64,000 nt of DNA, from the NCBI GenBank assembly GCA_964019135.1, contig OZ025257.1, forward strand, positions 24,288,352 through 24,352,351. The letters are read 5' to 3'. Origin of the DNA: Arenicola marina (taxonomy: Eukaryota; Annelida; Polychaeta; Arenicolidae). How positions within the stretch are numbered: the first letter of the stretch is position 1; each line of letters starts with the position of its first letter. Under the pieces are notes generated by a model. That model saw only the letters and a program-made list of their open reading frames with translations, was not told the DNA's origin and searched no databases. Made by a program: the position numbers and the translations under genes. Of the stretch, positions 6,922 through 58,515 are shown piece after piece.

Positions 6922-7430
6922 CTAGTTACACATCACATTAAGGTAACAATCACTCGTATCGATTATATTTAACAAACTATCCTTAGTATTTCTCTTAAAA
7001 AGTTGAAGCGATGATTGAAAGTTTACCTTACCAAAATATTTATTAAATATATATATCCCATTATATCTCATATATATTTTCTTCCATTGACATTTATGTT
7101 TAGGAACATGTAATAGCTGCGACCTTCTAGTGCTATACTTATGCAGGTCAGCATTTCTTATAAACAAATCTTGTATGATAAGAAGCTGCAATCCATTGTA
7201 TTGCTTATATATAAATAACACGCTAATCTCGTATAATGATGTGAGCGGTAGAATCTTATATTCATTACGAATAACGGTGCTGAATGGGCCCATTTATTAA
7301 CTCCGGACAATATGCGAACTGCTTTTTTTAAAATCTTATCAAATCAGATGGTGTATTAGCTTGGGTTAAAAAGCTAATACACCAGGCTCCCCATACTTCA
7401 ATACAATATATTAGATATGGAGATCTGGGT
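6922..7430 (-). mobile_element. LINE 3' fragment (C-terminal end of a second RT element), copy A
   Basis: The minus strand reads like the C-terminal tail of a non-LTR retrotransposon. It has a 'YCIEVWGA'-type block in the 7380-7420 region, 'ILPLTSLYEISVLF', then 'HKYSTRRS' and a 'SLQLFKRNTKDSLL' end. This is a different family from the RT at 2736-3700. The reading frame is broken in this copy. It lies about 115 bases beyond the 3' end of G1, and homology between G1 and G2 begins right after it (7429 against 16683). The fragment therefore marks the module boundary. Confidence 0.75.
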
Positions 7431-7518
7431 TTAAAAGCCATGAATTTAGAAACGATAAACGAAAGTGTAAGCAGGTGGCACGAACGAAATTGCGAAAAAG
7501 AACTGAAGCTTTCTTTCC

Positions 7519-7544: not shown

Positions 7545-9884
7545 TCAAGCAAACACACTGATGAGGGTACCGCCGATTCGGACTGCCGTGAAAAGCAGAT
7601 TGAGCCATTTGCTCTGAGGAACCATCACATCGGGCATCTTATTCCCCGTCAGGAGGTCAACGAGTGCCTTGAGGACAGCCTCGCTCTCAGCCGGGGTCAG
7701 TTCAAGGTCACCCAACGCCACAGCAGTGCTGGAAAGAAGCGGCATACGGAAGGATTAAAGTAGTGAGCAGGCAGGCATCCTTCATAGAGCAATTACATAA
7801 CCTTTGTAGCTATTTATAGCGTTATGCAAATGCCTAGCAAGTCACGGGCTGGATACTAACGTTTCTAGGATCAGCTTCGCCACCTCCGCAGTGTTTCCCT
7901 CCGATACCATCTTCTCCACTGAAAGAGAAGTATTAACAGTCATAAATAACCAAGTGCCAGTGGAATACGGAAGGCAATTTAGGTTGGGGGCCCTCGGGAC
8001 CCTTAGTAATTAACCAACGACCACAGTAGAACGGTTCTTACCGAAATCCGCCAGTCGACCGTCCATGACGACCTCTTCCACGACCTTGTTGATGGCCGCC
8101 ATGTGTAGCAGCTCATCGGCATCCTCTTCTGCAACAAAACACTAGGGTCAGTGAAGGTGGTTAAAGGCCCCCCGGGTCAGTGAAGGTGAAGGTGGCACAA
8201 GGATCCCAGCGTGAGTGAAGGTGGCACACGGCTGGATATAAGCGCAAGGCTGAGGCAGGACTGTCAGAGGGAACATGAAGCGGACAGGTAGATTTGGTTT
8301 ACTTACTAAAGAAAGAGATGAAGCCAGAGACGAAATCTTCAGACGCCGTGGCCTCCGTCAGTCCGATGACGATCTCAGCCACCTCGGGAAGGGCCTTCAT
8401 CAACTTCCGCGTCACCATAACCTTGATTGGGGCCGGCAAGGCCAAGCTCTGCACGGACGCTTCAAAACCACCCTGCAAGAAGTCTACAATGGCCCCAATG
8501 CCGGCTTCAATCTGTGGAAGGGTGGCCGACAAGTCGCAAGTGATCTGTCCTGTGGCGAATGGAGCCATGTACTTGTGGATTGAGATGGCCACCATCTGGA
8601 AGAGCTCGACTACTGGTCTCTCCAGGAAGAGTTCCTGGCTTATTAAAGTCTGGATTTCATCAAAGAGGCCATCCATCGGGATATCTCCTGGGGAAGGACA
8701 AAACTGCATTCAGGTTTGTATTCATCGTTAGCGTTTGAAACAAAAGGAATGCAAGAACTGGCTAGAGGTAGTATTATGTAATATTTCAAAGCTGTAGGTT
8801 CAACTTCGCATATTAAAGACAAGGTAACTGGATCATAAAAAAGTTTCTCACCGATGGCAGATTCGAATACCATTACTTTCTCTTGTAGTGCTGCAGAGAT
8901 GAAGTCCACCACCTCCTTCATGTGGGCCGCCACGTCCACCATGGACGGCTTCTTGCCCATCCCACCACCATGACCTCCCTTTCGACGCGCAATCATCTCC
9001 TCCACGGATTCAATGGATTCCATCGACTCCCCGCTAGCCTTGCCAGGCTTCAGATGGTGCAGATGGTCGATTTCACCAATCTCCTTCCCGGCCAGGAGCA
9101 TATCCTCCACCACCAGGTTCCGCACCAGATGTTCCACAAAGCCTGGAAGCAGAAGGAAGGAATCGTTCATTGCAGGGGTACCAGTGGAATAACGAATAGA
9201 ATAAACTAGAATTCATGCCAGTTGCTGGAGAATGAAGCTCACTTACCGATGACGGCATGCACTGCAACCGCTTGTCCGCATTCTGCAGGCACCATCTTTT
9301 CCGTCACGGTGGCGGCAATGATTTCAAAGGCTTTCCAAGTCTTTATTGGATCCACAGCAGTGATCGGCATCGTGTAGTCTACCCCGACGGCGTCCAGCTT
9401 ATCCGCCAATGCAACTGCCACTATAAAAACATGTAACGTTATCTTCGCAAGCTATCAATGGTATAGACGGAGAAAGTACGAGAATATATTTAGAGGGAGT
9501 TCTCTTACTTAAAGATGCCACGGTCTTCGAACAGTCATTATTAGAAGCACCAACGGGAGTTCTTCAACTGGCTAACTGTATATTCGTGGATATTCGTAAA
9601 TAAAAATAAATAAATAATTGGCTTGCTCAATAACAGCTTCATACTCACGGTCGTTGCCCACTGGGGCCAGCAGAGCGACCAGCTCAGAGTTAGTGCGGCG
9701 GAAAAGGCGGATCCGTCCACCTAAGACGAAAGGTCATGAAGCCCAATTAAGCATAAAAATCCCCAAACTCTCAAGCAAACTAAGCAAATCAGAACGATAA
9801 AGTGTGTGGATTTACCCAATCAGTTGCGTGCTTACCATGAACGACGGCGGCCATACAGATCATGGAGAGCAGAAACAGCTTCAT
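7545..9884 (-). CDS. G1: secreted 431-residue protein of unrecognised family (tandem copy 1)
   Basis: Eight exons in transcription order: 9836-9884, 9649-9720, 9247-9420, 8852-9142, 8307-8687, 8042-8128, 7861-7918 and 7545-7728 (1296 nt). Every junction is GT-AG and the phases fit (phase 1 except the last, which is phase 2). The start gives a signal peptide, MKLFLLSMICMAAVVHG. The mature protein is mostly amphipathic helix. Residues 124-163 form a His/Gly/Lys/Glu-rich linker (DHLHH, RRKGGHGGGMGKK) with possible dibasic cleavage sites. Only C88 and C246 remain outside the signal peptide. I know no family for it; export is inferred from the signal peptide. G1 is a mosaic: exons 3-8 match G4, while exons 1-2, intron 1 and the promoter match G2. 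Private changes include D350 (A in the others) and N361 (K in the others). Confidence 0.85.
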
Positions 9885-13200: not shown

Positions 13201-14460
13201 CCGAGGCACGGATCATTAGATTGTAGGGCCCTACCATTATTACCCGAGGCACGGATCATTAGATGACCGGGGCACGGATCATTAGATGACCGGGGCAGGG
13301 CTCTACCATTATTACCAGGGGCACGGATCATTCGATGACCGGGGCAGGGCCCTACCATTATTACCAGGGGCACGGATCATTGGATGACCGGGGCAGGGCC
13401 CTGCCATTATTACCCGAGGCACGGATCATTCGATGACCGGGGCAGGGCCCTACCATTATTACCCGAGGCACGGATCATTAGATGACCGGGGCAGGGCCTT
13501 ACCATTATTACATGAGGCACGATTCATTAGATGACCGGGGCAGGGCACTACCAATATTACCAGGGGCACGGATCATTGGATGACCGGGGCAGGGCCCTAC
13601 CATTATTACCCGAGGCACGGATCATTAGATGACCGGGGCAGGGCCCTACCATTATTACCCGAGGCACGGATCATTAGATGACCGGGGCAGGGCCTTACCA
13701 TTATTACATGAGGCACGATTCATTAGATGACCGGGGCAGGGCACTACCATTATTACCCGAGGCACGGATCATTAGATTGCAGGGCCCTACCATTATTACC
13801 CGAGGCACGGATCATTAGATGACCGGGGCACGGATCATTAGATGACCGGGGCAGGGCTCTACCATTATTACCAGGGGCACGGATCATTCGATGACCGGGG
13901 CAGGGCCCTACCATTATTACCAGGGGCACAGATCATTAGATGACCGGGGCAGGGCTCTACCATTATTACCAGTGGCACGGATCATTGGATGACCGGGGCA
14001 GGGCCCTACCATTATTACCCGAGGCACGGATCATTAGATGACCGGGGCAGGGCCCTACCATTATTACCCGAGGCACGGATCATTAGATGACCGGGGCAGG
14101 GCCTTACCATTATTACATGAGGCACGATTCATTAGATGACCGGGGCAGGGCACTACCATTATTATCCGAGGCACGGATCATTAGATGAACAGGGCAGGGC
14201 CCTACCATTATTACCCGAGGCACGGATCATTAGATGACCGGGGCAGGGCCCTACCATTATTACCCGAGGCACGGATCATTAGATGACCGGGGCAGGGCCT
14301 TACCATTATTACATGAGGCACGATTCATCAGATGACCGGGGCAGGGCACTACCATTATTATCCGAGGCACGGATCACTAGATGAACAGGGCAGGGCCCTA
14401 CCATTATTACCCGAGGCACGAATCATTAGATGACCGGGGCGGAGCACTACCATTATTACT
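10273..14460. repeat. 49-bp minisatellite array M1 (about 85 units)
   Basis: Units start CCCGAGGCACGGATCATTAG and end CTACCATTATTA. The standard unit is 49 bp. A 43-bp variant replaces the middle with ATTGCAGGG, and a shorter dimer fuses two GGATCATT cores. Variant units recur in order: the stretch at 11679-11933 returns at 12808-13062, a higher-order period of 1129 bp. A further sub-family with CATGAGGCACGATTCATT appears from about 13500 on. The array sits about 290 bases upstream of the G1 TATA box. Confidence 0.95.
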
Positions 14461-16690: not shown

Positions 16691-16774
16691 AAGCCATGAA
16701 TTTAGAAACGATAAACGAAAGTGTAAGCAGGTGGCACGAACGAAATTGCGAAAAAGAACTGAAGCTTTCATTCC

Positions 16775-16780
16775 TTTATT
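16775..16780 (-). terminator. Poly(A) signal of G2
   Basis: AATAAA on the minus strand, 20 bases past the G2 stop codon. Confidence 0.75.
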
Positions 16781-16800
16781 GCGATAATATTGCAACCAAA

Positions 16801-19800
16801 TCAAGCAAACACACTGATGAGGGTACCGCCGATTTGGACTGCCGTGAAAAGCAGATTGAGCCATTTGCTCTGAGGAAGCATCACATCGGGCATCTTATTC
16901 CCCGTCAGGAGGTCAACGAATGCCTTGAGGACAGCCTCGCTCTCAGCCGGGGTCAGTTCAAGGTCACCCAACGCCACAGCAGTGCTGGAAAGAAGCGGCA
17001 TACGGAAGGATTAAAGTAGTGAGCAGGCAGGCATCCTTCATAGAGCAATTACATAACCTTTGTAGCTATTTATAGCGTTATGCAAATGCCTAGCAAGTCA
17101 CGGGCTGGATACTAACGTCTCTAGGATCAGCTTCGCCACCTCCGCAGTCTTTCCCTCAGATACCATCTTCTCAACTGAAAGAGAAGTATTAACAGTCATA
17201 AATAACCAAGTGCCAGTGGAATACGGAAGGCAATTTAGGTTGGGGGCCCTCGGGACCCTTAGTAATTGGCCAACGACCACAGTAGAACTGTCCTTACCAA
17301 AAGCCGCCAGTCGACCGTCCATGAAGACCTCCTCTACGACCTTGTTGATGGCCGCCATGTGCAACAGCTCATCGGCATCCTCTTCTGCAACAAAACACCA
17401 GGGTCAGTGAAAGTGGCTCAAGGGTCAGTGAAAGTGGCTCAAGGGTCAGTGAAAGTGGCTCAAGGGTCAGTGAAAGTGGCTCAAGGGTCAGTGAAAGTGG
17501 CTCAAGGGTCAGTGAAAGTGGCTCAAGGGTCAGTGAAAGTGGCTCAAGGCCCCAAGGGTCAGTGAAAGTGGCTCAAGGGTCAGTGAAAGTGGCTCAAGGC
17601 CCCAAGGGTCAGTGAAAGTGGCTCAAGGCCCCAAGGGTCAGTGAAAGTGGCTCAAGGCCCCAAGGGTCAGTGAAGGTGGCTCAAGGCCCCAAGGGTCAGT
17701 GAAGGTGGCTCAAGGCCCCAAGGGTCAGTGAAGGTGGCTCAAGGCCCCAAGGGTCAGTGAAGGTGGCTCAAGGCCCCAAGGGTCAGTGAAGGTGGCTCAA
17801 GGCCCCAAGGGTCAGTGAAGGTGGCTCAAGGCCCCAAGGGTCAGTGAAGGTGGCTCAAGGCCCCAAGGGTCAGTGAAGGTGGCTCAAGGCCCCAAGGGTC
17901 AGTGAAGGTGGCTCAAGGCCCCAAGGGTCAGTGAAGGTGGCTCAAGGCCCCAAGGGTCAGTGAAGGTGGCTCAAGGCCCCAAGGGTCAGTGAAGGTGGCT
18001 CAAGGCCCCAAGGGTCAGTGAAGGTGGCTCAAGGCCCCAAGGGTCAGTGAAGGTGGCTCAGGGCCCCAAGGGTCAGTGAAGGTGGCTCAGGGCCCCAAGG
18101 GTCAGTGAAAGTGGCTCAAGGCCCCAAGGGTCAGTGAAAGTGGCTCAAGGGTCAGTGAAGGTGGCTCAAGGCCCCAAGGGTCAGTGAAGGTGGCTCAGGG
18201 CCCCAAGGGTCAGTGAAGGTGGCTCAGGGCCCCAAGGGTCAGTGAAGGAGGAACAAGGCTGGCTGTAACCAGACGCCAGCCCAAGGCTGGCCAGTCAAAG
18301 AGAAGCTGTGGTGGACTGTTTACCATCTGGTGCACTTACTGAAGAACGAGATGAAGCCAGAGACTAAATCTTCAGACGCCATGGCTTCAGTCAGTCCGAT
18401 GACGATCTCAGCCACCTCAGGAAGGCCCTTCATCAACTTGCGCGTCACCATAACCTTGATGGGGGCCGGCAAGGTCAAGCTCTGCAAGGACGCTTCAAAG
18501 CCACCCTGCAAGAAGTCTACAATGGCCCCAATTCCGGCTTCAATCTGTGGGAGGGCGGCCGACAAGTCGCAAGTGATCCGTCCTGTGGCGAATGGAGCCA
18601 TGTACTTGTGGATGGAGATGGCCACCATCTGGAAGAGCTCGCCTACTGGTCTCTCCAGGAAGAGTTCCTGGCTTATTAAAGCCTGAATTTCATCAAAGAG
18701 GCCATCCATCGGGATATCTCCTGGGGAAGGACAAAACTGCATTCAGGCTTGTATTCATTGTATAAAACAGGAATGCACGACACAAATATTTGACCAGAAG
18801 TAGAACTAATTTCAAAGATTTAGGTCACCTTGGCATATTAAAGTGATGGTTACCAGATAGTTAGAAGGGGGGCGGGGGGTTCTCACCGATGGCAGATTCG
18901 AATACCATTACTTTCTCCTGCAGTGCTGCAGAGATGAAGTCCACCACCTCCTTCATGTGGGCCGCCACGTCCACCATGGACGGCTTCTTGCCCATCCCAC
19001 CACCATGACCTCCCTTTCGACGCGCAATCATCTCTTCCACGGATTCAATGGATTCCATCGACTCCCCGCTAGCCTTGCCAGGCTTCAGATGGTGCAGATG
19101 GTCGATTTCACCAATCTCCTTCCCGGCCAGGAGCATATCCTCCACCACCAGGTTCCGCACCAGATGTTCCACAAAGCCTGGAATCAGACGGAAGGAATCG
19201 TTCATTGCACGGGTACCAGTGGAATAACGAATGGAATAAACTAGAATTCATGTCAGTTGCTGGAGAATGAAGCTCACTTACCGATGACGGCATGCACTGC
19301 AACCGCTTGTCCGCATTCTGCAGGCACCATCTTTTCAGCCACGGTGGCGGCAATGATTTCAAATGCTTTCCAAGTCTTTACCGGATCCACAGCCGTGATA
19401 GGCATCGTGTAGTCTACCCCGACGGCATCCAGCTTATCCGCTAATGCAACTGCCACTACACGGAACAAACAACGTACACCATCTGCAAAAGCTATAAATG
19501 TGAATCCATTCGGCTAACGCCTCGTGCATGCTGAACAACAAAATCAACTGTGGAACGTTTTCTCTAAGTACTTGAAAAGGATCACGATCTTTGAACCTTC
19601 CAGATTTGGAAAACCACCAAACGAGTTAATTTACTTTCAAAACACTCGATTCGAATAGAACTCTCAAAAGACCAAAGTCACGCGTCATTCATAGTGAATA
19701 TAGGGTTTGGCTTGCTCAATAACAGCTTCATACTCACGGTCGTTGCCCACTGGGGCCAGCAGAGCGACCAGCTCAGAGTTAGTGCGGCGGAAAAGGCGGA

Positions 19801-20362: not shown

Positions 20363-23300
20363 ACCCGAGGCGCGGATTATTAGATGACCGGGCCATGGCC
20401 CTACCATTATTACCAGGGGCAAGGATCATTAGATGACCGGGGCAGGGCCCTACCATGATTACCCGAGGCACGGATCATTAGATGACCGGGGCAGGGCCCT
20501 ACCATTATTACCCGAGGCACGGATCATTAGATGCCCGGGCCATGGCCCTACCATGATTACCCGAGGCACGGATCATTAGATGACCGGGGCAGGGCCCTAC
20601 CATTATTACCCGAGGCACGGATCATTAGATGACCGGGGCAGGGCCCTACCATGATTACCCGAGGCACATATCATTAGATGACCGGGGCAGGGCCCTACCA
20701 TGATTACCCGAGGCACGGATCATTAGATGCCCGGGCCATGGACCTGCCATTATTACCCGAGGCACGGATCATTAGATGACCGGGGCAGGGCCCTACCATG
20801 ATTACCCGAGGCACGGATCATTAGATGACCGGGGCAGGGCCCTACCATGATTACCCGAGGCACGGATCATTAGATGACCGGGGCAGGGCCCTATCATGAT
20901 TACCCGAGGCACGGATCATTAGATGACCGGGGCAGGGCCCTACCATGATTACCCGAGGCACGGATCATTAGATGACCGGGGCAGGGCCCTACCATTATTA
21001 CCCGAGGCACGGATCATTAGATTGCAGGGCCCTACCATTATTACCCGAGGCACGGATCATTAGATTGCAGGGCCCTACCATTATTACCCGAGGCACGGAT
21101 CATTAGATTGCAGGGCCCTACCATTATTACCCGAGGCACGGATCATTAGATGACCGGGGCAGGGCCCTACCATTATTACCCGAAGCACGGATCATTAGAT
21201 TGCAGGGCCCTACCATTATTACCCGAGGCACGGATCATTAGATTGCAGGGCCCTACCATTATTACCCGAGGCAGGGATCATTAGATGACCGGGGCAGGGC
21301 CCTACCATTATTACCCGAGGCACGGATCATTAGATGACCGGGGCACGGATCATTGGATGACCGGGGCAGGGCCCTACCATTATTACCCGAGGCACGAATC
21401 ATTAGATGACCGGGGCAGGGCCCTACCATGATTACCCGAGGCACGGATCATTAGATGACCGGGGCAGGGCCCTACCATGATTACCCGAGGCACGGATCAT
21501 TAGATGACCGGGGCAGGGCCCTACCATGATTACCCGAGGCACGGATCATTAGATGACCGGGGCAGGGCCCTACCATGATTACCCGAGGCACGGATCATTA
21601 GATGACCGGGGCAGGGCCCTACCATGATTACCCGAGGCACGGATCATTAGATGACCGGGGCAGGGCCCTATCATGATTACCCGAGGCACGGATCATTAGA
21701 TGACCGGGGCAGGGCCCTACCATGATTACCCGAGGCACGGATCATTAGATGACCGGGGCAGGGCCCTACCATTATTACCCGAAGCACGGATCATTAGATT
21801 GCAGGGCCCTACCATTATTACCCGAGGCACGGATCATTAGATTGCAGGGCCCTACCATTATTACCCGAGGCACGGATCATTAGATTGCAGGGCCCTACCA
21901 TTATTACCCGAGGCACGGATCATTAGATGACCGGGGCAGGGCCCTACCATTATTACCCGAAGCACGGATCATTAGATTGCAGGGCCCTACCATTATTACC
22001 CGAGGCACGGATCATTAGATTGCAGGGCCCTACCATTATTACCCGAGGCAGGGATCATTAGATGACCGGGGCAGGGCCCTACCATTATTACCCGAGGCAC
22101 GGATCATTAGATGACCGGGGCACGGATCATTGGATGACCGGGGCAGGGCCCTACCATTATTACCCGAGGCACGAATCATTAGATGACCGGGGCAGGGCCC
22201 TACCATGATTACCCGAGGCACGGATCATTAGATGACCGGGGCAGGGCCCTACCATGATTACCCGAGGCACGGATCATTAGATGACCGGGGCAGGGCCCTA
22301 CCATGATTACCCGAGGCACGGATCATTAGATGACCGGGGCAGGGCCCTACCATGATTACCCGAGGCACGGATCATTAGATGCCCGGGCCATGGCCCTACC
22401 ATTATTACCCGAGGCACGGATCATTAGATGACCGGGGCAGGGCCCTACCATTATTACCCGAAGCACGGATCATTAGATTGCAGGGCCCTACCATTATTAC
22501 CCGAGGCACGGATCATTAGATTGCAGGGCCCTACCATTATTACCCGAGGCACGGATCATTAGATGACCGGGGCAGGGCCCTACCATTATTACCCGAAGCA
22601 CGGATCATTAGATTGCAGGGCCCTACCATTATTACCCGAGGCACGGATCATTAGATTGCAGGGCCCTACCATTATTACCCGAGGCAGGGATCATTAGATG
22701 ACCGGGGCAGGGCCCTACCATTATTACCCGAGGCACGGATCATTAGATGACCGGGGCACGGATCATTGGATGACCGGGGCAGGGCCCTACCATTATTACC
22801 AGGGGCACGGATCATTAGATGACCGGGGCAGGGCTCTACCATTATTACCAGGGGCACGGATCATTAGATGACCGGGGCAGGGCCCTACCATTATTACCAG
22901 GGGCACGGATCATTAGATGACTGGGGCAGGGCTCTACCATTATTACCAGGGGCACGGATCATTAGATGACCGGGGCAAGGCCCTACCATTTTTACCCGAG
23001 GCACGGATCATTAGATTGCAGGGCCCTACCATTATTACCCGAGGCACGGATCATTAGATTGCAGGGCCCTACCATTATTACCCGAGGCACGGATCATTAG
23101 AGTGCAGGGCCCTACCATTATTACCCGAGGCACGGATCATTAGATGACCGGGGCAGGGATTATTAGATGACCGGGCCATGGCCCTACCATTATTACCAGG
23201 GGCACGGATCATTGGATGACCTGGGCAGGGCTCTACCATTATTACCAGGGGCAAGGATCATTAGATGCCCGGGCCATGGCCCTACCATTATTACCCGAGG

Positions 23301-24492
23301 CAAGGATCATTAGATGACCGGGGCAGGGCCCTACCATGATTACCCGAGGCACGGATCATTAGATGCCCGGGCCATGGCCCTGCCATTATTACCCGAGGCA
23401 AGGATCATTAGATGACCGGGGCAGGGCCCTACCATGATTACCCGAGGCACGAATCATTAGATGACCGGGGCAGGGCCCTACCATTATTACCAGGGGCAAG
23501 GATCATTAGATGACCGGGGCAGGGCCCTACCATTAATCCCCGAGGCACGGATCATTAGATTGCAGGGCCCTACCATTATTACCCGAGGCACGGATCATTA
23601 GATGACCGGGGCACGGATCATTAGATGACCGGGGCAGGGCTCTACCATTATTACCAGGGGCACGGATCATTCGATGACCGGGGCAGGGCCTTACCATTAT
23701 TACCAGGGGCACGGATCATTAGATTGCAGGGCCCTACCATTATTACCCGAGGCACGGATCATTAGATTGCAGGGCCCTACCAATATTACCCGAGGCACGG
23801 ATCATTAGATTGCAGGGCCCTACCATTATTACCCGAGGCACGGATCATTAGATGACCGGGGCAGGGATTATTAGATGACCGGGCCATGGCCCTACCATTA
23901 TTACCAGGGGCACGGATCATTGGATGACCGGGGCAGGGCTCTACCATTATTACCAGGGGCAAGGATCATTAGATGACCGGGGCAGGGCCCTACCATTATT
24001 ACCCGAGGCACGGATCATTAGATGACCGGGGCAGGGCACTACCATTATTATCCGAGGCACGGATCATTAGATGAACAGGGCAGGGCCCTACCATTATTAC
24101 CCGAGGCACGGATCATTAGATGACCGGGGCAGGGCCCTACCATTATTACCCGAGGCACGAATCATTAGATGACCGGGGCAGGGCCCTACCATTATTATCC
24201 GAGGCACGGATCATTAGATGAACAGGGCAGGGCCCTACCATTATTACCCGAGGCACGGATCATTAGATGACCGGGGCAGGGCCCTACCATTATTACCCGA
24301 GGCACGGATCATTAGATGACCGGGGCAGGGCCTTACCATTATTACATGAGGCACGATTCATTAGATGACCGGGGCAGGGCACTACCATGATTATCCGAGG
24401 CACGGATCATTAGATGAACAGGGCAGGGCCCTACCATTATTACCCGAGGCACGGATCATTAGATGACCGGGGCGGAGCACTACCATTATTAC
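20363..24492. repeat. 49-bp minisatellite array M2 (about 84 units)
   Basis: The same unit family as M1 (10273-14460) and the same position relative to the gene. The internal order differs: a block around 21262-21444 returns exactly at 22039-22221 (higher-order period 777 bp) and nearly again at 22675-22857. The left end (GGCACCCGAGGCGCGGAT) and the right end (GGCGGAGCACTACC...) match M1, so the whole module was copied and then reshuffled internally. Confidence 0.95.
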
Positions 24493-26740
24493 TCACACGT
24501 CGTAAACTATCACGACGTCTCCTGCTGTTGTAAATGCCATGCGTGAATAATACATGAGTTAAGAAATGAAACAATAGGGTGGCGTAGAATAACGACCACA
24601 CTGTGTGGACGACGAAAGCCGGATCCAGTTAAGTAATTAGTGAGAATTACTGTTTGTTTGTGAGAAACAATGCTGATTTCCGGGGAGATCGACAATAGAT
24701 CTATTGCCCGACACTAAGCCTTGCCCATGCTTGAGTCCTTTTTCCTTACTCATGAGTATGAAATTGACGATTATCATAACTGATGGTAGGTACAAGTGAG
24801 AAGTACTCATCTCTAAAACAACAAAGTGCCATGCTGCTTTGTTTGTCCGACTTGTTTGTCTGACTTGACGTCATGATTGGATAAAGCAACAGTGACGTCA
24901 GTGGATTATTGACAGCCAGGATCGGTTTATTTAAAGTATCTTGTGAGCCTGAAACCCTTTGCCGAAGCCCATACGCCAACCCAATTCCGCTGAAATGTTT
25001 CGAATTATTGTTTATTGTGTTTTTATCCGTATTGTCAGAATCGGAATGTGGAAAGGTATGTAATCAATGTATGGGTGTATGCTGACAAATTATTTTTCAT
25101 CAAGTGACCCATCAATCTTATTTTCCAAATAATTCACTAGTGAAAGACCTCCGCGGCTCTCGCTTGGCGCGGAAAACTGGAGAGGAGAACCGCGCGTTTT
25201 CCATAGTTTTCTGATCATGCCCACTTTTCGCGATTTAGGATCGCAGTATATAAGAAACTAAATTACCTCAAACTTAATAGTCAGTGACAATAAATTCCGT
25301 ATTTAACATTTAACGATTATTTATGTGTCATTCTGCACTCCCAAGAATTAACGAAATCCCAAGAGATGGACTTTAAATAACCCTTGTACGATGATGTATG
25401 CTAAAATGTTTTCATAAACTGCCAATAATACATTACCGAAATGTAGGTATTTTAGGTTATATATTGCCTATCATTCGACAGTCACTCTCTGCTTCGACTC
25501 CCCTAGGGGATACAAACGCATGTGCTTTTACATTGAGACTCTCTGCTCATTGGCTTGAACTCAACCAAAAGCATTCAACCATGAGGACAATACAAGCCCT
25601 CGACAACAGATTCCTGCGCACTGCATCAAAGCTCACCTGTCAATCTTGTGACATCATTAGGGAATTTCTAAATACCGCCCAGATGCAAAACTCCCAGAAT
25701 TAAACCCGCCGAACCTCACTTTTGCTACTTTTGCTACGAACGCATTTATAGTGATATCGTGGAATAAAAACTCCCATTAAAACAAATTCATATTTGTTTG
25801 TCTTCCCTAAATAAAGTTAACTCTGAGCTAAGCAAAATCGTGGCACGAACACTTTAAATCTCTACTGTAGTATAGGACGTCAGTTCATAAAATAACACTT
25901 ATGATCTATTCTTGAAAAGGATTATTTAGCAAGAAATTATATTTGGTTTGACAACTTTTCAAGAACCTTGAAATTGCCCAGGCTGACAGCAGGGGGAATT
26001 CGGGTATATATGCGAGCGAAAAGTCGGAGTATGCGGAGCTCATGACCGAAAGAAGTTTGCAACTAACGTTGTCACTTAGGCTGAGTTAAGTTAACTTGAG
26101 TTGATGATTATGTTACTTAACTGCAGGTGCAGGAAATATATTAATATTGAAAGAAATTAATTTGAGATTTGTAAGAAAAAGATAGGAGTTCGATTTGTCG
26201 AATTTATAATATTTGGAATTGCATTTTACCCCGCAATGTTTTGCCAAAGGCAATGGTGTAATGAGAGTTGCCGCCGCCCCTCTCTGTGTAGTGGTTAGAG
26301 CGCACTGGAACGTAGATCTATAGATCCTCGGCTCGACACCAAGACGAAGGGATATAATCTGGGGCATGTTTAATCCATGTATCGGTCATCGTCCCCGGGA
26401 GATGTTTATCCCAGGTTAAGCTCTTGTGTGCGCAAAAAGCAGACTAAAACACCAATTTGCCATCGAATCAAATAAGTGCGACCAACTAACACTGCGATAC
26501 TTGTAATACATACTCAGTACTACATCGAGAAGTTTCGCTACCTTATAATTTCTCGAGTAATACATCAGTAAATATTTTTTAGATCAATTGTCATCTATGT
26601 GTTGTGTCGTGTTGTGTTGTGTCCACAAAAGTTCAGTCTAATTGTACTGCCAAAAATGTCGTGGTAGTTTGGAGAACACTTTGGCCAGAAATGATAACTT
26701 GGCTCTGAATACTAATTTTCCTTTGCTCGGGTTTAAAAGC
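24493..26740. other. Intergenic block I' (downstream of G3), recent copy of 14461-16690
   Basis: Nearly identical to block I at an offset of about 10.03-10.05 kb. The one clear difference is a short insertion near 24640. It holds a copy of the SINE (26271-26431) and of the hAT-like segment. I can support no gene. Confidence 0.75.
26271..26431 (+). mobile_element. tRNA-derived SINE (duplicate of 16225-16385)
   Basis: Same A-box and B-box sequences as the copy in block I. It was carried here by the segmental duplication, not by a second insertion. Confidence 0.65.
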
Positions 26741-26820
26741 CATGAATTTAGAAACGATAAACGAAAGTGTAAGCAGGTGGCACGAACGAAATTGCGAAAA
26801 AGAACTGAAGCTTTCATTCC

Positions 26821-26826
26821 TTTATT
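26821..26826 (-). terminator. Poly(A) signal of G3
   Basis: AATAAA on the minus strand, 20 bases past the G3 stop codon. Confidence 0.75.
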
Positions 26827-26846
26827 GCGATAATATTGCAACCAAA

Positions 26847-29800
26847 TCAAGCAAACACACTGATGAGGGTACCGCCGATTTGGACTGCCGTGAAAAGCAG
26901 ATTGAGCCATTTGCTCTGAGGAAGCATCACATCGGGCAGCTTATTCCCCGTCAGGAGGTCAACGAATGCCTTGAGGACAGCCTCGCTCTCAGCCGGGGTC
27001 AGTTCAAGGTCACCCAACGCCACAGCAGTGCTGGAAAGAAGCGGCATACGGAAGGATTAAAGTAGTGAGCAGGCAGGCATCCTTCATAGAGCAATTACAT
27101 AACCTTTGTAGCTATTTATAGCGTTATGCAAATGCCTAGCAAGTCACGGGCTGGATACTAACGTCTCTAGGATCAGCTTCGCCACCTCCGCAGTCTTTCC
27201 CTCAGATACCATCTTCTCAACTGAAAGAGAAGTATTAACAGTCATAAATAACCAAGTGCCAGTGGAATACGGAAGGCAATTTAGGTTGGGGGCCCTCGGG
27301 ACCCTTAGTAATTGGCCAACGACCACAGTAGAACTGTCCTTACCAAAAGCCGCCAGTCGACCGTCCATGAAGACCTCCTCTACGACCTTGTTGATGGCCG
27401 CCATGTGCAACAGCTCATCGGCATCCTCTTCTGCAACGTGGCTCAAGGGTCAGTGAGAGTGGCTCAAGGGTCAGTGAGAGTGGCTCAAGGGTCAGTGAGA
27501 GTGGCTCAAGGGTCAGTGAGAGTGGCTCAAGGGTCAGTGAGAGTGGCTCAAGGGTCAGTGAGAGTGGCTCAAGGGTCAGTGAGAGTGGCTCAAGGGTCAG
27601 TGAGAGTGGCTCAAGGGTCAGTGAGAGTGGCTCAAGGGTCAGTGAGAGTGGCTCAAGGGTCAGTGAGAGTGGCTCAAGGGTCAGTGAGAGTGGCTCAAGG
27701 GTCAGTGAGAGTGGCTCAAGGGTCAGTGAGAGTGGCTCAAGGGTCAGTGAGAGTGGCTCAAGGGTCAGTGAGAGTGGCTCAAGGGTCAGTGAGAGTGGCT
27801 CAAGGGTCAGTGAGAGTGGCTCAAGGGTCAGTGAGAGTGGCTCAAGGGTCAGTGAGAGTGGCTCAAGGGTCAGTGAGAGTGGCTCAAGGGTCAGTGAGAG
27901 TGGCTCAAGGGTCAGTGAGAGTGGCTCAAGGGTCAGTGAGAGTGGCTCAAGGGTCAGTGAGAGTGGCTCAAGGGTCAGTGAGAGTGGCTCAAGGGTCAGT
28001 GAGAGTGGCTCAAGGGTCAGTGAGAGTGGCTCAAGGGTCAGTGAGAGTGGCTCAAGGGTCAGTGAGAGTGGCTCAAGGGTCAGTGAGAGTGGCTCAAGGG
28101 TCAGTGAGAGTGGCTCAAGGGTCAGTGAGAGTGGCTCAAGGGTCAGTGAGAGTGGCTCAAGGGTCAGTGAGAGTGGCTCAAGGGTCAGTGAGAGTGGCTC
28201 AAGGGTCAGTGAGAGTGGCTCAAGGGTCAGTGAGAGTGGCTCAAGGGTCAGTGAGAGTGGCTCAAGGGTCAGTGAGAGTGGCTCAAGGGTCAGTGAGAGT
28301 GGCTCAAGGGTCAGTGAGAGTGGCTCAAGGGTCAGTGAGAGTGGCTCAAGGGTCAGTGAGAGTGGCTCAAGGGTCAGTGAGAGTGGCTCAAGGGTCAGTG
28401 AGAGTGGCTCAAGGGTCAGTGAGAGTGGCTCAAGGGTCAGTGAGAGTGGCTCAAGGGTCAGTGAGAGTGGCTCAAGGGTCAGTGAGAGTGGCTCAAGGGT
28501 CAGTGAGAGTGGCTCAAGGGTCAGTGAGAGTGGCTCAAGGGTCAGTGAGAGTGGCTCAAGGGTCAGTGAGAGTGGCTCAAGGGTCAGTGAGAGTGGCTCA
28601 AGGGTCAGTGAGAGTGGCTCAAGGGTCAGTGAGAGTGGCTCAAGGGTCAGTGAGAGTGGCTCAAGGGTCAGTGAGAGTGGCTCAAGGGTCAGTGAGAGTG
28701 GCTCAAGGGTCAGTGAGAGTGGCTCAAGGGTCAGTGAGAGTGGCTCAAGGGTCAGTGAGAGTGGCTCAAGGGTCAGTGAGAGTGGCTCAAGGGTCAGTGA
28801 GAGTGGCTCAAGGGTCAGTGAGAGTGGCTCAAGGGTCAGTGAGAGTGGCTCAAGGGTCAGTGAGAGTGGCTCAAGGGTCAGTGAGAGTGGCTCAAGGGTC
28901 AGTGAGAGTGGCTCAAGGGTCAGTGAGAGTGGCTCAAGGGTCAGTGAGAGTGGCTCAAGGGTCAGTGAGAGTGGCTCAAGGGTCAGTGAGAGTGGCTCAA
29001 GGGTCAGTGAGAGTGGCTCAAGGGTCAGTGAGAGTGGCTCAAGGGTCAGTGAGAGTGGCTCAAGGGTCAGTGAGAGTGGCTCAAGGGTCAGTGAGAGTGG
29101 CTCAAGGGTCAGTGAGAGTGGCTCAAGGGTCAGTGAGAGTGGCTCAAGGGTCAGTGAGAGTGGCTCAAGGGTCAGTGAGAGTGGCTCAAGGGTCAGTGAG
29201 AGTGGCTCAAGGGTCAGTGAGAGTGGCTCAAGGGTCAGTGAGAGTGGCTCAAGGGTCAGTGAGAGTGGCTCAAGGGTCAGTGAGAGTGGCTCAAGGGTCA
29301 GTGAGAGTGGCTCAAGGGTCAGTGAGAGTGGCTCAAGGGTCAGTGAGAGTGGCTCAAGGGTCAGTGAGAGTGGCTCAAGGGTCAGTGAGAGTGGCTCAAG
29401 GGTCAGTGAGAGTGGCTCAAGGGTCAGTGAGAGTGGCTCAAGGGTCAGTGAGAGTGGCTCAAGGGTCAGTGAGAGTGGCTCAAGGGTCAGTGAGAGTGGC
29501 TCAAGGGTCAGTGAGAGTGGCTCAAGGGTCAGTGAGAGTGGCTCAAGGGTCAGTGAGAGTGGCTCAAGGGTCAGTGAGAGTGGCTCAAGGGTCAGTGAGA
29601 GTGGCTCAAGGGTCAGTGAGAGTGGCTCAAGGGTCAGTGAGAGTGGCTCAAGGGTCAGTGAGAGTGGCTCAAGGGTCAGTGAGAGTGGCTCAAGGGTCAG
29701 TGAGAGTGGCTCAAGGGTCAGTGAGAGTGGCTCAAGGGTCAGTGAGAGTGGCTCAAGGGTCAGTGAGAGTGGCTCAAGGGTCAGTGAGAGTGGCTCAAGG

Positions 29801-32591
29801 GTCAGTGAGAGTGGCTCAAGGGTCAGTGAGAGTGGCTCAAGGGTCAGTGAGAGTGGCTCAAGGGTCAGTGAGAGTGGCTCAAGGGTCAGTGAGAGTGGCT
29901 CAAGGGTCAGTGAGAGTGGCTCAAGGGTCAGTGAGAGTGGCTCAAGGGTCAGTGAGAGTGGCTCAAGGGTCAGTGAGAGTGGCTCAAGGGTCAGTGAGAG
30001 TGGCTCAAGGGTCAGTGAGAGTGGCTCAAGGGTCAGTGAGAGTGGCTCAAGGGTCAGTGAGAGTGGCTCAAGGGTCAGTGAGAGTGGCTCAAGGGTCAGT
30101 GAGAGTGGCTCAAGGGTCAGTGAGAGTGGCTCAAGGGTCAGTGAGAGTGGCTCAAGGGTCAGTGAGAGTGGCTCAAGGGTCAGTGAGAGTGGCTCAAGGG
30201 TCAGTGAGAGTGGCTCAAGGGTCAGTGAGAGTGGCTCAAGGGTCAGTGAGAGTGGCTCAAGGGTCAGTGAGAGTGGCTCAAGGGTCAGTGAGAGTGGCTC
30301 AAGGGTCAGTGAGAGTGGCTCAAGGGTCAGTGAGAGTGGCTCAAGGGTCAGTGAGAGTGGCTCAAGGGTCAGTGAGAGTGGCTCAAGGGTCAGTGAGAGT
30401 GGCTCAAGGGTCAGTGAGAGTGGCTCAAGGGTCAGTGAGAGTGGCTCAAGGGTCAGTGAGAGTGGCTCAAGGGTCAGTGAGAGTGGCTCAAGGGTCAGTG
30501 AGAGTGGCTCAAGGGTCAGTGAGAGTGGCTCAAGGGTCAGTGAGAGTGGCTCAAGGGTCAGTGAGAGTGGCTCAAGGGTCAGTGAGAGTGGCTCAAGGGT
30601 CAGTGAGAGTGGCTCAAGGCCCCAAGGGTCAGTGAGAGTGGCTCAAGGCCCCAAGGGTCAGTGAGAGAGGCTCAAGGCCCCAAGGGTCAGTGAAAGTGGC
30701 TCAAGGCCCCAAGGGTCAGTGAAAGTGGCTCAAGGCCCCAAGGGTCAGTGAAAGTGGCTCAAGGCCCCAAGGGTCAGTGAAAGTGGCTCAAGGCCCCAAG
30801 GGTCAGTGAAAGTGGCTCAAGGCCCCAAGGGTCAGTGAAGGAGGCTCAAGGCCCCAAGGGTCAGTGAAAGTGGCTCAAGGCCCCAAGGGTCAGTGAAGGA
30901 GGAACAAGGCTGGCTGGAACCAGACGCCAGCCCAAGGCTGGCCAGTCAAAGGGGAGTCTGTGGTGGACTGTTTACCATCTGGTGCACTTACTGAAGAACG
31001 AGATGAAGCCAGAGACTAAATCTTCAGACGCCATGGCTTCAGTCAGTCCGATGACGATCTCAGCCACCTCAGGAAGGCCCTTCATCAACTTGCGCGTCAC
31101 CATAACCTTGATGGGGGCCGGCAAGGTCAAGCTCTGCAAGGACGCTTCAAAGCCACCTTGCAAGAAGTCCACAATGGCCCCAATTCCGGCTTCAATCTGT
31201 GGGAGGGCGGCCGACAAGTCGCAAGTGATCCGTCCTGTGGCGAATGGAGCCATGTACTTGTGGATGGAGATGGCCACCATCTGGAAGAGCTCGACTACTG
31301 GTCTCTCCAGGAAGAGTTCCTGGCTTATTAAAGCCTGAATTTCATCAAAGAGGCCATCCATCGGGATATCTCCTGGGGAAGGACAAAACTGCATTCAGGC
31401 TTGTATTCATTGTATAAAACAGGAATGCACGACACAAATATTTGACCAGAAGTAGAACTAATTTCAAAGATTTAGGTCACCTTGGCATATTAAAGTGATG
31501 GTTACCAGATAGTTAGAAGGGGGGCGGGGGGTTCTCACCGATGGCAGATTCGAATACCATTACTTTCTCCTGTAGTGCTGCAGAGATGAAGTCCACCACC
31601 TCCTTCATGTGGGCCGCCACGTCCACCATGGACGGCTTCTTGCCCATCCCACCACCATGACCTCCCTTTCGACGCGCAATCATCTCTTCCACGGATTCAA
31701 TGGATTCCATCGACTCCCCGGTAGCCTTGCCAGGCTTCAGATGGTGCAGATGGTCGATTTCACCAATCTCCTTCCCGGCCAGGAGCATATCCTCCACCAC
31801 CAGGTTCCGCACCAGATGTTCCACAAAGCCTGGAAGCAGAAGGAAGGAATCTTTCATTGAACGGGTACCAGTGGAATAACGAATAGAATAAACTAGAATT
31901 CATGCCAGTTGCTGGAGAATGAAGCTCACTTACCGATGACGGCATGCACTGCAACCGCTTGTCCGCATTCTGCAGGCACCATCTTTTCCGTCACGGTGGC
32001 GGCAATGATTTCAAAGGCTTTCCAAGTCTTAATTGGATCCACAGCAGTGATCGGCATCGTGTAGTCTACCCCGACGGCGTCCAGCTTATCCGCCAATGCA
32101 ACTGCCACTATAAAAACATGTAACGTTATCTTCGCAAGCTATCAATGGTATAGACGGAGAAAGTAGGAGAATATATTTAGAGGGAGTTCTCTTACTTAAA
32201 GATGCCACGGTCTTCGAGCAGTCATTATTAGAAGCACCAACGGAAGTTATTCAACTGGCTAACTGTATATTCGTAAATAAAAATAAATAAATGTTTGGCT
32301 TTCTCAATAACAGCTTCATGCTCACGGTCGTTGCCCACCGGGGCCAGCAGAGTGACCAGCTCAGAGTTGGTGCGGCGGAAAAGGCGGATCCGTCCACCTA
32401 AGACGAAAGGCCATGAACCCCACATTAAGCATAAACATCCACTAAAGCACAAATTTTGTCTTCCATCAATATATATGTATATTAAAAAAACTAAGCTAAT
32501 CACAAAGATAAATTGCATGGATTTACTCAACCCATTGCTTACCATGAACGACGGCGGCCATGCAGATCAGAGAAAGAAGAAACAGCTTCAT
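26847..32591 (-). CDS. G3: secreted 431-residue protein of unrecognised family (tandem copy 3, Y/X mosaic)
   Basis: Exons in transcription order: 32543-32591, 32326-32397, 31934-32107, 31539-31829, 30992-31372, 27344-27430, 27163-27220 and 26847-27030 (431 residues). The signal peptide is MKLFLLSLICMAAVVHG. Introns 4 and 5 and the 3' flank are type Y, like G2. Introns 1-3, exon 1 and the promoter are type X, like G4. The switch falls inside exon 4, roughly 31690-31830. Intron 5 is 3561 bp and is almost entirely minisatellite. The coding frame is undamaged. The normal TTTTGTTGCAG acceptor of exon 6 has become GCCACGTTGCAG, because the array runs to seven bases from the exon. Splicing efficiency there may differ from the sister copies. 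Confidence 0.85.
27438..30905. repeat. Giant intron-5 minisatellite of G3: 151 perfect 21-bp units plus 29-bp tail
   Basis: From 27438 to 30608 there are 151 identical 21-bp units (plus strand GTGGCTCAAGGGTCAGTGAG and one more base). About ten 29-bp units with GGCCCCAA spacers follow, to about 30905. Because 21 is a multiple of three and the unit lacks stops in one plus-strand frame, the array reads antisense as an endless VAQGSVR repeat. It is intronic and not a gene. On the transcribed strand each unit contains CACTGAC, a good branch-point match (CTGAC). Confidence 0.97.
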
Positions 32592-37988: not shown

Positions 37989-40900
37989 TGGCGCGGCCGA
38001 CAGGCGTACCTAAGACTGGACCCGGTGGATCCCCGGGGGCTGGTTCCCAGGGAGTCGCCCCTGTCTCGGCGGCGGCCTCCCTCCGGCTGGCGGGGGTCAG
38101 CATCCACGGGTCTGGAGCGGCCGGACCCCTCGCCCAGACCTGTAACACAGACGCCAGGCGCACAGGTCACACCGAGGTCACACCGAGGTCACACCGAGGG
38201 ATGGGGTCAACGATATAGGTTAAAGTAAACTAGCGTAGGCAAGTAATGTGGCCAGGGAGAACGGTGAACAATCACATCAGTTCTAGAACTGATGACGTAA
38301 ATTCCGCTTCGGACGACCAGAAACCACGTGCAACTTAGCGTAGGCAAGTGATGTATGTAGTCAGAGAGAAAGGTGAACCAATCACGTCAGTTGTAATACT
38401 GATTTCCGCTTCAGGCGACCAAAAACCACGTGCAAATAAATTCCTTTCGCATCTCAATCAGAATGCAATGTTAAGAGCAGAGCCTCTGCACAGAATCAGG
38501 AAATGAGAGATGACTTTTTTTTATACATGTAAATAAATATAAATACAGATATGACAAACGACGTGAACATGAATATTGTCTTTTTAAAACGGCCCTACAT
38601 TATGACTCGCTATCGTTGTTGGTCGTGAGCATAAATCCTAAACTTACCATGTAACAGACAGGGCTGCGAGGTGACTCGCTGTGAGCCTGGACAGTCACGT
38701 GTCCTTCACCCTGCCTTACCTTTATCTGTGGAGTCCTTCCCGCTGCGCACGCTCACACCGAACTCGTTCTGGTTCCGGTCCAGAAAGGCCGCCTTCTCTC
38801 TCACAGATGAACGCTTCCTCACGGCTGTATAACCTTGACCTTCAGGCGTTCACCCCTCGCTGGGGTTGTCCTTGGGCGGAGTCCCGCTGCGGGGAGGGGA
38901 GGCGGTCTCCGATTCCTCCACAGCTTCTGCCGGGGGAAAAAAACAAGTCGAGGGTTGATTGACGGGCATATTGGTTGTATATTCAGGACGCTTTAACCCA
39001 TTCTGGTCATATCGCGTCAGCTGGAGAAGGAAGGGGGAGTGGAGCCATGTCCCCGGGGGTAACCCCCTACACTTTGCGAAGAAGGACATGGGATCTATGT
39101 CCACACAGACAGGACCACAGCGTGGCTTGATCCAACCATCTAGGCGCGATTGTGGGCAAATTTGTCAACGATATCCCTGATTTGGCCGTCTTCAAACGAC
39201 CCTTTACCCTGCGAGTGGTATATCGGCGGACGATATCAATGGTAGCGCAGAGCCATATCCCCCGAGATAAACCGCTTCTAACTATTAATTCCAAAGATGG
39301 ACATATTAGGATCTCGAGTATATTATCTTTAAACCAAAGTACACATTTGCAACAGTGGGACGCGAAGCCCCGAAACTCTGGCACGATGGCTGGCCTAGCA
39401 GAGTTCACTGAACAAAGCGCGAGCTCGCTAACCACTAGGCCATTCGGGTGGTCCTCAACAACAATACCTGAATACCCTATTAAGTGGCGCTGTCAGAACA
39501 TTCACAACGTCCCCGATGCATCCCTTGGTCGCACAGCCATACAAATTACAAAAGCCAGAAACGAATACTGCCGTAGAAATTTGTCGTCCACAGCACAAAA
39601 GACAGTAGACAGTGGCCTAAACGTGCCTTGCCAGAGGGAGAGCAGTGTACGTAAGGCTCATTGCTGCATCACCATGGTGTAAATGTAGACAAATCCCGTC
39701 AACGTATTCAACATTATCTCAGTTGCGTCATTTTGTTCATTCTTTCACACACATTTTCACAAACACAATGAAAAGCATTTCATTAAAGCAGAGGTCTGAG
39801 AGCAGCGGCGCAAAGTTAACATTAGTCTACAGACTAACCTTCCACAGTGCACAGAAGGTGTATATATTGTAGATGGTTGCATCCACGTCTTTTTGAGACG
39901 AGGGTTCATAATTATCGTGTATTAAACCGGCGAAGATAAGACGCACATAATAGCTTCAACATTGAACTGAATATTACAATTTAACAAGCGTGGAATCATT
40001 GCTTACCAAGGAATTTAAATTTGTAAATTAATTTCTAATATTATTTCTACACATGTGATAAAGCCTAAAAGAGCAACCACTGGGGCTACATTTACCGTGT
40101 CCACTTGTATGGATCTATCATACCTACCAGATCTAATACACTATATACTCACTATGCAAAAACAACATCACCAAGCCCTGTACCGAAGCACATAGTATAA
40201 GTTGTCTAGTATAAGTATTTACTTCATCGACAACTCCCATATTATTAAAGCCAATGACCAATGATCTGAGCAGTTAAGTTGAAATTTAGCCTTATTGCTC
40301 TTTTCGTGCATTGTCATTGCTATGATATTCAGATAGAAGCAAAGCGAAGCACTATTTGTAAGCCTTCCACGTTGTCATGGTTATGGATACCCCATTGAGA
40401 CGCCGGCGTAATGTAAGCCTTCCACATTACTATGGTTACCGATACCCCATTGAGACGCCGGCGTAATGTAAGCCTTCCACATTTTCATGGTCATGGATAC
40501 CCCATTGAGACGCCGGCGTAATGTAAGCCTTCGACATTGCTATGGTTACCGATACCCCATTGAGACGCCGGCGTAATGTAAGCCTTCCACATTGTCATGG
40601 TTACCAATACCCCATTGAGACGCCGGCGTAATGTAAGCCTTCCACATTGTCATGGTTACCAATACCCCATTGAGACGCCAGCATTGTCATGGTTACCAAT
40701 ACCCCATTGAGACGCCGGCGTATTGTAAGCCTTCCATATTGTCATGGTTACCAATACCCCATTGAGACGCCGGCGTAATGCAAGCCTTCCACATTGTCAT
40801 GGTTATCGATACCCCATTGAGACGCCGGCGTAATGTAAGCCTTCCACATTGTCATGGTTACCGATACCCCATTACGCCGGCGTAATGTAAGCCTTCCACA

Positions 40901-56144: not shown

Positions 56145-58515
56145 TCAAGCAAACACACTGATGAGGGTACCGCCGATTCGGACTGCCGTGGAAAGCAGAT
56201 TGAGCCATTTGCTCTGAGGAACCATCACATCGGGCATCTTATTCCCCGTCAGGAGGTCAACGAGTGCCTTGAGGACAGCCTCGCTCTCAGCCGGGGTCAG
56301 TTCAAGGTCACCCAACGCCACAGCAGTGCTGGAAAGAAGCGGCATACGGAAGGATTAAAGTAGTGAGCAGGCAGGCATCCTTCATAGAGCAATTACATAA
56401 CCTTTGTAGCTATTTATAGCGTTATGCAAATGCCTAGCAAGTCACGGGCTGGATACTAACGTTTCTAGGATCAGCTTCGCCACCTCCGCAGTCTTTCCCT
56501 CCGATACCATCTTCTCCACTGAAAGAGAAGTATTAACAGTCATAAATAATCAAGTGCCAGTGGAATACGGAAGGCAATTTAGGTTGGGGGCCCTCGGGAC
56601 CCTTAGTAATTAACCAACGACCACAGTAGAACGGTTCTTACCGAAAGCCGCCAGTCGACCGTCCATGACGACCTCTTCCACGACCTTGTTGATGGCCGCC
56701 ATGTGTAGCAGCTCATCGGCATCCTCTTCTGCAACAAAACACCAGGGTCAGTGAAGGTGGTTAAAGGCCCCCCGGGTCGGTGAAGGTGAAGGTGGCACAA
56801 GGATCCCAGCGTGAGTGAAGGTGGCACACGGCTGGATATAAGCGCAAGGCTGAGGCAGGACTGTCAGAGGGAACATGAAGCGGAGAGGTAGATTTGGTTT
56901 ACTTACTGAAGAAAGAGATGAAGCCAGAGACGAAATCTTCAGACGCCGTGGCCTCCGTCAGTCCGATGACGATCTCAGCCACCTCGGGAAGGGCCTTCAT
57001 CAACTTCCGCGTCACCATAACCTTGATTGGGGCCGGCAAGGCCAAGCTCTGCACGGACGCTTCAAAACCACCCTGCAAGAAGTCTACAATGGCCCCAATG
57101 CCGGCTTCAATCTGTGGAAGGGCGGCCGACAAGTCGCAAGTGATCTGTCCTGTGGCGAATGGAGCCATGTACTTGTGGATGGAGATGGCCACCATCTGGA
57201 AGAGCTCGACCACTGGTCTCTCCAGGAAGAGTTCCTGGCTTATTAAAGTCTGAATTTCATCAAAGAGGCCATCCATCGGGATATCTCCTGGGGAAGGACA
57301 AAACTGCATTCAGGATTGTATTCATCGTTAGCGTATGAAACAAAAGGAATGCAAGAACTGGCCAGAGGTAGTATTATGTAATATTTCAAAGCTGTAGGTT
57401 CAACTTCGCATATTAAAGACAAGGTAACTGGATCATAAAAAAGTTTCTCACCGATGGCAGATTCGAATACCATTACTTTCTCCTGTAGTGCTGCAGAGAT
57501 GAAGTCCACCACCTCCTTCATGTGGGCCGCCACGTCCACCATGGACGGCTTCTTGCCCATCCCACCACCATGACCTCCCTTTCGACGCGCAATCATCTCC
57601 TCCACGGATTCAATGGATTCCATCGACTCCCCGCTAGCCTTGCCAGGCTTCAGATGGTGCAGATGGTCGATTTCACCAATCTCCTTCCCGGCCAGGAGCA
57701 TATCCTCCACCACCAGGTTCCGCACCAGATGTTCCACAAAGCCTGGAAGCAGAAGGAAGGAATCGTTCATTGCACGGGTACCAGTGGAATAACGAATAGA
57801 ATAAACTAGAATTCATGCCAGTTGCTGGAGAATGAAGCTCACTTACCGATGACGGCATGCACTGCAACCGCTTGTCCGCATTCTGCAGGCACCATCTTTT
57901 CCGTCACGGTGGCGGCAATGATTTCAAAGGCTTTCCAAGTCTTTATTGGATCCACAGCAGTGATCGGCATCGTGTAGTCTACCCCGACGGCGTCCAGCTT
58001 ATCCGCCAATGCAACTGCCACTATAAAAACATGTAACGTTATCTTCGCAAGCTATCAATGGTATAGACGGAGAAAGTACGAGAATATATTTAGAGGGAGT
58101 TATCTTACTTAAAGATGCCACGGTCTTCGAACAGTCATTATTAGAAGCACCAACGGGAGTTATTCAACTGGCTAACTGTATATTCGTGGATATTCGTAAA
58201 TAAAAATAAATAAATGTTTGGCTTTCTCAATAACAGCTTCATGCTCACGGTCGTTGCCCACCGGGGCCAGCAGAGTGACCAGCTCAGAGTTGGTGCGGCG
58301 GAAAAGGCGGATGCGTCCACCTAAGACGAAAGGTCATGAACCCCACATTAAGCATAAACATCCACTAAAGCACAAATTTTGTCTCCCATCAATATATATG
58401 TATATCAAAAAAAACTAAGCTAATCACAAAGATAAATTGCATGGATTTACTCAACCCATTGCTTACCATGAACGACGGCGGCCATGCAGATCAGAGAAAG
58501 AAGAAACAGCTTCAT
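56145..58515 (-). CDS. G4: secreted 431-residue protein of unrecognised family (tandem copy 4, pure type X)
   Basis: Exons in transcription order: 58467-58515, 58249-58320, 57847-58020, 57452-57742, 56907-57287, 56642-56728, 56461-56518 and 56145-56328 (431 residues). Intron 5 is the short form (178 bp) with only a few degenerate GGTCAGTGAAGGTG motifs, so it represents the state before minisatellite growth. Residue 34 onward is VTLLAPVG, as in G3, whereas G1/G2 read VALLAPVG. Otherwise the protein is nearly identical to G1 over exons 3-8. The reading frame, splice sites, signal peptide, C88 and C246 are intact. G4 sits 9 kb beyond the disordered-protein exons, on the same strand. Confidence 0.85.

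Follow-up and report, generated by a model that had tools for sequence, protein, structure and literature searches.

A hypervariable intronic minisatellite, probably seeded by the intron's own splice region, in a gene family of Arenicola marina

In this article, I describe an intron whose longer forms are, as far as the DNA itself can be read, a hypervariable intronic minisatellite, that is, an array whose copy number differs among copies of the gene. The explanation that I consider likely is that the array was seeded by the intron's own branch-point/3' splice region and has since been unstable and tolerated, most likely without a selected function. The twenty copies measured here, ranging from 138 bp to 9.3 kb in one genome, provide both a natural dose series for studying intron length and repeated branch-point sequences against splicing, and a record of the birth of a minisatellite from a splice signal. 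The starting point was a window, meaning the whole stretch of DNA analysed (64,000 nucleotides; G000:C10:24288352-24352351 of an 867-Mb assembly, the one assembly used), which includes four genes of the family, G1 to G4.

The G3 intron and its 151-unit tract

The longest intron 5 within the window belongs to G3, a gene whose protein has an N-terminus that looks like a signal peptide by eye; Pfam returned no match for the two parts of the protein that were tested, and PDB matches with E values of 0.34 and 0.98 were taken as chance. Its relevant features, all on the minus strand, are as follows.

26850..32591, minus strand: G3 gene, eight coding exons (exon 1 at 32541-32591 to exon 8 at 26850-27029)
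27431..30991, minus strand: intron 5 of G3 (GTAAGT...TTGCAG), 3561 bp, placed by exon matches and splice dinucleotides; gene model by homology
30898..30991, minus strand: unique donor-proximal part of the intron, 94 bp
30594..30897, minus strand: 29-bp units (about 10.5), to the donor side of the 21-mer block
27438..30608, minus strand: a 21-bp unit in 151 identical copies (CCACTCTCACTGACCCTTGAG on the coding strand, cyclic); every copy has CACTGAC and a single GAG
27431..27437, minus strand: ancestral acceptor remnant GTTGCAG

The array is entirely intronic, lying between an intact exon 5 and an intact exon 6 in an intron with GT..AG ends, and its units, of the ~10-100 bp class, are arranged head-to-tail. 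The first-pass annotation had counted 151 perfect 21-bp units, and that count is exact: Tandem Repeats Finder and a scan for exact periods both give 151 identical copies of GTGGCTCAAGGGTCAGTGAGA (plus strand), with the perfect period of 21 extending to 30619 (3182 bp in total), and the exact dimer of the 21-mer occurs 150 times genome-wide on a single strand, the number given by the G3 array alone. The longest runs of identical units after this one among the 11 mapped arrays are 93, 47, 45 and 29. The same annotation had the units filling the intron, which overstates their share, since the 21-mers make up 89% of it and the remainder, at the donor end, is taken by the 29-bp units (each a 21-mer plus 8 bp) and the unique 94 bp. 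Because the unit length is divisible by 3, the 21-mer array has long open frames on both strands; a coding role was rejected, the intron of G1-G4 beginning with an in-frame TAA.

The 3171 bp of 21-mers show no differences, which places divergence below ~0.1% per site (a simple binomial bound at 95%), and array lengths are kilobases apart in some paralogues whose upstream sequences diverge by 0.25-1%, so the earlier suggestion of very recent growth is borne out to the extent that perfect identity fits recent growth, provided that the assembly is correct. Since the 29-mers adjoining the 21-mer block already show the G3-specific TCTC variant, the comparison suggests that one founder unit grew to form the block.

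At its other end the repeat reaches into the splice acceptor. The ending CACTGACCCTGGTGTTTTGTTGCAG is common to 13 of the 20 measured introns, with a single change in G1 and, uniquely, CACTGACCCTTGAGCCACGTTGCAG in G3. The acceptor context is CCCTGGTGTTTTGTTGCAG in G2, G4 and a further 11 genes (G1 differing at one place) and CCCTTGAGCCACGTTGCAG in G3, in agreement with the initial observation that this context had been replaced and only GTTGCAG remained. The introns of L029 and L031-L034 have their own distinct ends, those of L031-L034 without CACTGAC at that place. The 8 bp before GTTGCAG, GGTGTTTT in the paralogues, are repeat (TGAGCCAC) in G3, a change equivalent to an 8-bp in-register replacement or to a 21-bp deletion, and G3 is the sole case of the 20 where repeat growth entered the acceptor tract. 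The spacing from CACTGAC to the AG is unchanged, and the A is found at -20, where the C10 relatives with a retained CACTGAC also have it (counted from the sequence). Between positions -20 and -5, G3 has 10/16 pyrimidines against 11 in G2, and 4 Ts against 8. On a rough, home-made family matrix (42 distinct acceptors, at least three of them set two bases off and some mutually related, which lifts their scores), the G3 acceptor scores 6.33 against 13.62 for L039 and 12.11 for G1 and is thus weak, yet 10 of the 41 other acceptors score below it.

A length series across the family

Protein searches of the genome gave at least 66 matches with exons 6-8 and at least 43 with exon 5. I took 18 loci, which cover every C10 and C12 place of the exon 6-8 search not in the window (three of them as longer stretches), and intron 5 was measured in 20 genes including G1-G4, leaving out L035 and L036, in which no exon 5 or 6 was found. 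The lengths are 138, 143, 178, 178, 178, 604, 613, 641, 675, 727, 727, 955, 1366, 2543, 3107, 3127, 3561 (G3), 4909, 5426 and 9329 bp, and each of the 15 introns above 600 bp is an array of related units of 21, 29 or 30 bp. The other three introns of the window are given here.

8129..8306, minus strand: intron 5 of G1, 178 bp, with a few degenerate proto-units
17385..18339, minus strand: intron 5 of G2, 955 bp, 33 parsed units, 29-mers and then mostly 21-mers at the acceptor
56729..56906, minus strand: intron 5 of G4, 178 bp, with a few degenerate proto-units

These measurements match the 178-bp introns of G1 and G4 and the mixed 21/29-bp array of G2 described earlier, and the contrast that was drawn between them and G3 stands in part: a variable array is found family-wide, and G3 is special only in its 151-unit run and altered acceptor. 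The 26-base core of the 29-mer has 161 matches in the genome, a number matched by 12 genes of G3's family. The arrays of L031-L034 (23.35-23.47 Mb) are more degenerate and older-looking, at 85-87% match. Two of these loci, L032 and L034 (C10 23.38 and 23.47 Mb), are inverted copies in which AT replaces the donor GT and the 727-bp introns are identical. Farther afield, no array follows exon 5 in the nine distant family members sampled on C20, C1 and C6, where exon 6, found in 8/9, lies within about 90-140 bp of exon 5. Three family members on C6 (G000:C6 33.007, 33.065 and 33.123 Mb) lie ~58 kb apart, as in a recent segmental triplication.

The case for hypervariability rests on copies of the gene with near-identical flanks, several of which differ by kilobases in the array. 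L026 and L039 have 3/1200 upstream and 0/210 downstream differences and arrays of 3127 and 4909 bp, with a common main block order (29-21-29-21) and differing block sizes, and L030, 5-6/1200 upstream and 4/210 downstream differences away from both, has 604 bp. Similarly, L025 and L038 (2/330 upstream, 1/210 downstream) have 3107 and 9329 bp, and L022, L023 and L037 (7-12/~1200 upstream, 0/210 downstream) have 2543, 1366 and 5426 bp. There are counter-cases, however, in G1 and G4, both of 178 bp with 11/1200 upstream differences, and in the identical introns of L032 and L034.

Of the 16 genes checked for intactness, 13 gave complete in-frame matches for exons 1-7, the one with the 9.3-kb intron among them, while L022, L019 and L029 are incomplete or disturbed (L029 with a TGA in exon 5); in L031-L034, which lie outside this check, only part of exon 5 was found and exons 1-4 were not. 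All 18 pairs tried gave dN/dS values of 0.14-0.51, with gene mosaicism as a caveat.

Splice motifs within the unit and its origin

Each G3 unit does bear CACTGAC, as was claimed at the outset, and the last copy sits at the ancestral position; there are 161 copies in the whole of G3 intron 5. I take this motif to be a branch-point match. Units with a broken branch-point core number 65/394 in L038, 39/186 in L037, 11/87 in L022 and 8/48 in L023, and 0 or 1 in each of the other seven mapped arrays. Distinct variants per column come to 2.57 in the branch-point columns and 2.29 in the other core columns (8-bp indel left out), so that no extra conservation of the branch-point motif within units was found. 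Because broken cores have been amplified and these columns are as variable as the others, the motif, on this reading of the variants, is not visibly protected.

Over 34,268 bp, the class-A arrays (11 in number, those of G2, G3 and nine further genes) contain neither CAG nor TAG nor AAG, each of their 1,343 AGs being a GAG; L031-L034 have one CAG each, near the acceptor. With these 11 closest arrays free of CAG, TAG and AAG, array growth looks splice-neutral, and this absence hints at selection on the unit. The test of the variants is marginal, however: 3.6 acceptor-creating changes would be expected among the 38 distinct unit variants, and none was seen, or one counting a compound variant, which gives a P of 0.006 or 0.05, depending on how that one variant is counted. 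GT occurs in 3/11 class-A arrays and in all four of L031-L034, with none in the G3 repeat, and six folded segments of array (z from -0.41 to 1.44) gave no unusual RNA structure.

As for where the unit came from, the short introns of G1, G4, L020 and L024 contain a few degenerate copies of CCACCTTCACTGACCC, and short introns contain two or three degenerate copies of the CACTGAC region. In the C12 homologue L029 (138 bp), CACTGAC occurs twice at a distance of 28 bp, and shuffle comparisons of the sequence after the first copy show resemblance to the C10 acceptor (P 0.0002), to the acceptor of L029 itself (P 0.02) and to the 29-mer (P 0.006). The resemblance between the 29-mer and the C10 acceptor is weaker (P 0.03), and there is no significant one between a G1 unit and the C10 acceptor (P 0.11), these being five comparisons, uncorrected. 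From the L029 copies and their resemblance to acceptors, the seed of the repeat was probably the intron's own branch-point/3' splice region.

The sequence of events that I propose would begin with a tandem duplication of ~28-29 bp around CACTGAC near the acceptor, of which the degenerate copies in short introns would be the visible trace. Separate gene copies would then have expanded by slippage, unequal exchange or out-of-register conversion, a molecular step that I infer from the length differences observed. The loss of 8 bp would have given the 21-bp form, mostly at the acceptor side (of the 10 mapped arrays containing both forms, 9 have their 21-mers closer to the acceptor on average, the exception being L037). 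A single 21-bp unit in G3 that carried a T-to-C change may have become 151 identical copies, and the repeat would have overwritten, in register, 8 bp of the acceptor tract. Splicing of the G3 intron would probably be tolerated, since the last CACTGAC stays at -20 and the repeat adds no CAG/TAG/AAG acceptor and, in G3, no GT. The growth of the G3 array was probably both recent and neutral.

Competing explanations and known systems

Human zeta-globin offers an example of intron minisatellites in duplicated genes whose length differs between the copies. The G3 intron 5 array belongs with intronic VNTRs such as those of ABCA7 intron 18 and CACNA1C. Its unusual features are the series of 20 introns within one genome, the probable seed in a branch-point region, the perfect run of 151 units and the acceptor tract that repeat has overwritten.

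The first-pass annotation saw in the array a splicing-tuning tract with redundant branch points, in which many copies of the branch point would cooperate and array length would set the efficiency or rate of exon 5-6 joining. The abundance of CACTGAC in G3 with the last copy kept in place, the weak G3 acceptor compared with those of two paralogues and the lack of acceptor triplets in 11 arrays are all compatible with this, and length-dependent splicing has a precedent in ABCA7 (PMC5954066). Nevertheless, many units have lost the motif in four genes (up to 39/186), these broken cores have themselves been amplified with no excess conservation of the motif, and three genes with 3-6/1200 upstream and 0-4/210 downstream differences carry 604, 3127 and 4909 bp, which leaves tuning quite unlikely and the original claim unsustained. 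A more elaborate version, that the unit is a decommissioned copy of a 3' splice module (branch point, tract and an AG turned to GAG), that selection keeps amplified units acceptor-free and that the branch points buffer or tune the use of exon 6, I regard as improbable; if it were true, an intron could lengthen from 0.14 kb to 9.3 kb through harmless copying of its own splice signal.

Turning to recombination, the array could instead be a hotspot that drives exchange between paralogues and creates chimeric genes. The 5' and 3' gene halves do group differently, and the genes are therefore mosaics: G2 (16683-19458) and G3 (26729-32440) have an exon 5 like that of long-array genes and a 3' half nearest G1/G4 (by eye). 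The switch in G2 and G3, however, falls beyond the start of exon 6 rather than at the array, with further switches located upstream in the region from exon 3 to exon 5 (informative sites, by eye), so that the array as a recombination breakpoint is unsupported and a hotspot role quite unlikely. Part of the G3 exon 3 region is like G1/L020 (by eye). Least likely of all is an assembly artefact, in which consensus building across a repeat that was collapsed or over-extended would account for the copy number or the perfect identity. Exact identity across 3.2 kb is what such an error might produce, but the window is without any N and belongs to a 43-Mb contig; moreover, most of the other 14 arrays are of different lengths, with variants scattered among their units, and the order of blocks is common to two relatives, features that a consensus error could hardly invent. 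The existence of the array is safe, but its exact unit number is not, and array length could be wrong in the assembly.

Returning to the tolerated, unstable minisatellite, its closest counterparts are the following. The VNTR of ABCA7 intron 18 has a 25-bp unit beside a splice site, spans 298-10,678 bp between alleles, and its longer arrays go with more exon 19 skipping (PMC5954066). Both systems are thus short-unit intronic arrays adjoining a splice site, but the ABCA7 unit holds a donor GT and varies among people, whereas the unit of the G3 family has a branch-point match near the acceptor and varies among paralogues. The CACNA1C 'TRACT' is a long intronic array of 30-bp units whose growth is attributed to perfect tracts; the longest perfect tract named in the portion of that report used here has 26 units, in the shortest long-type alleles, against 151 in G3, and it concerns human alleles of a single gene rather than ~20 paralogues in one genome (PMC13131567). 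Amphioxus 'mirages' are length-unstable minisatellites at a splice boundary, reported as harmless to regular splicing (PMC3087553); they span the exon-intron boundary, whereas the G3 array ends 7 bp before exon 6 and its units are without exon sequence.

Several other repeats were seen along the way. In two distant family members, 44-bp tandem repeats hold the exon 2 donor (L040, reverse complement 1-274 = locus 7228-7501; L041 1-141), and their structure is mirage-like, judged from the unit sequence. L041 4093-8001 contains an 18-bp unit repeated ~217 times with 99% matches, reaching the end of the stretch. Within the window, two large arrays of 49-bp units lie between genes (10273-14459 and 20363-24492), an array of 55-bp units with ~12 copies occupies 40357-41041, and broken reverse-transcriptase-like frames of the non-LTR type occur at 2754-3729 and, on the minus strand, at 51244-52448 (translations, by eye).
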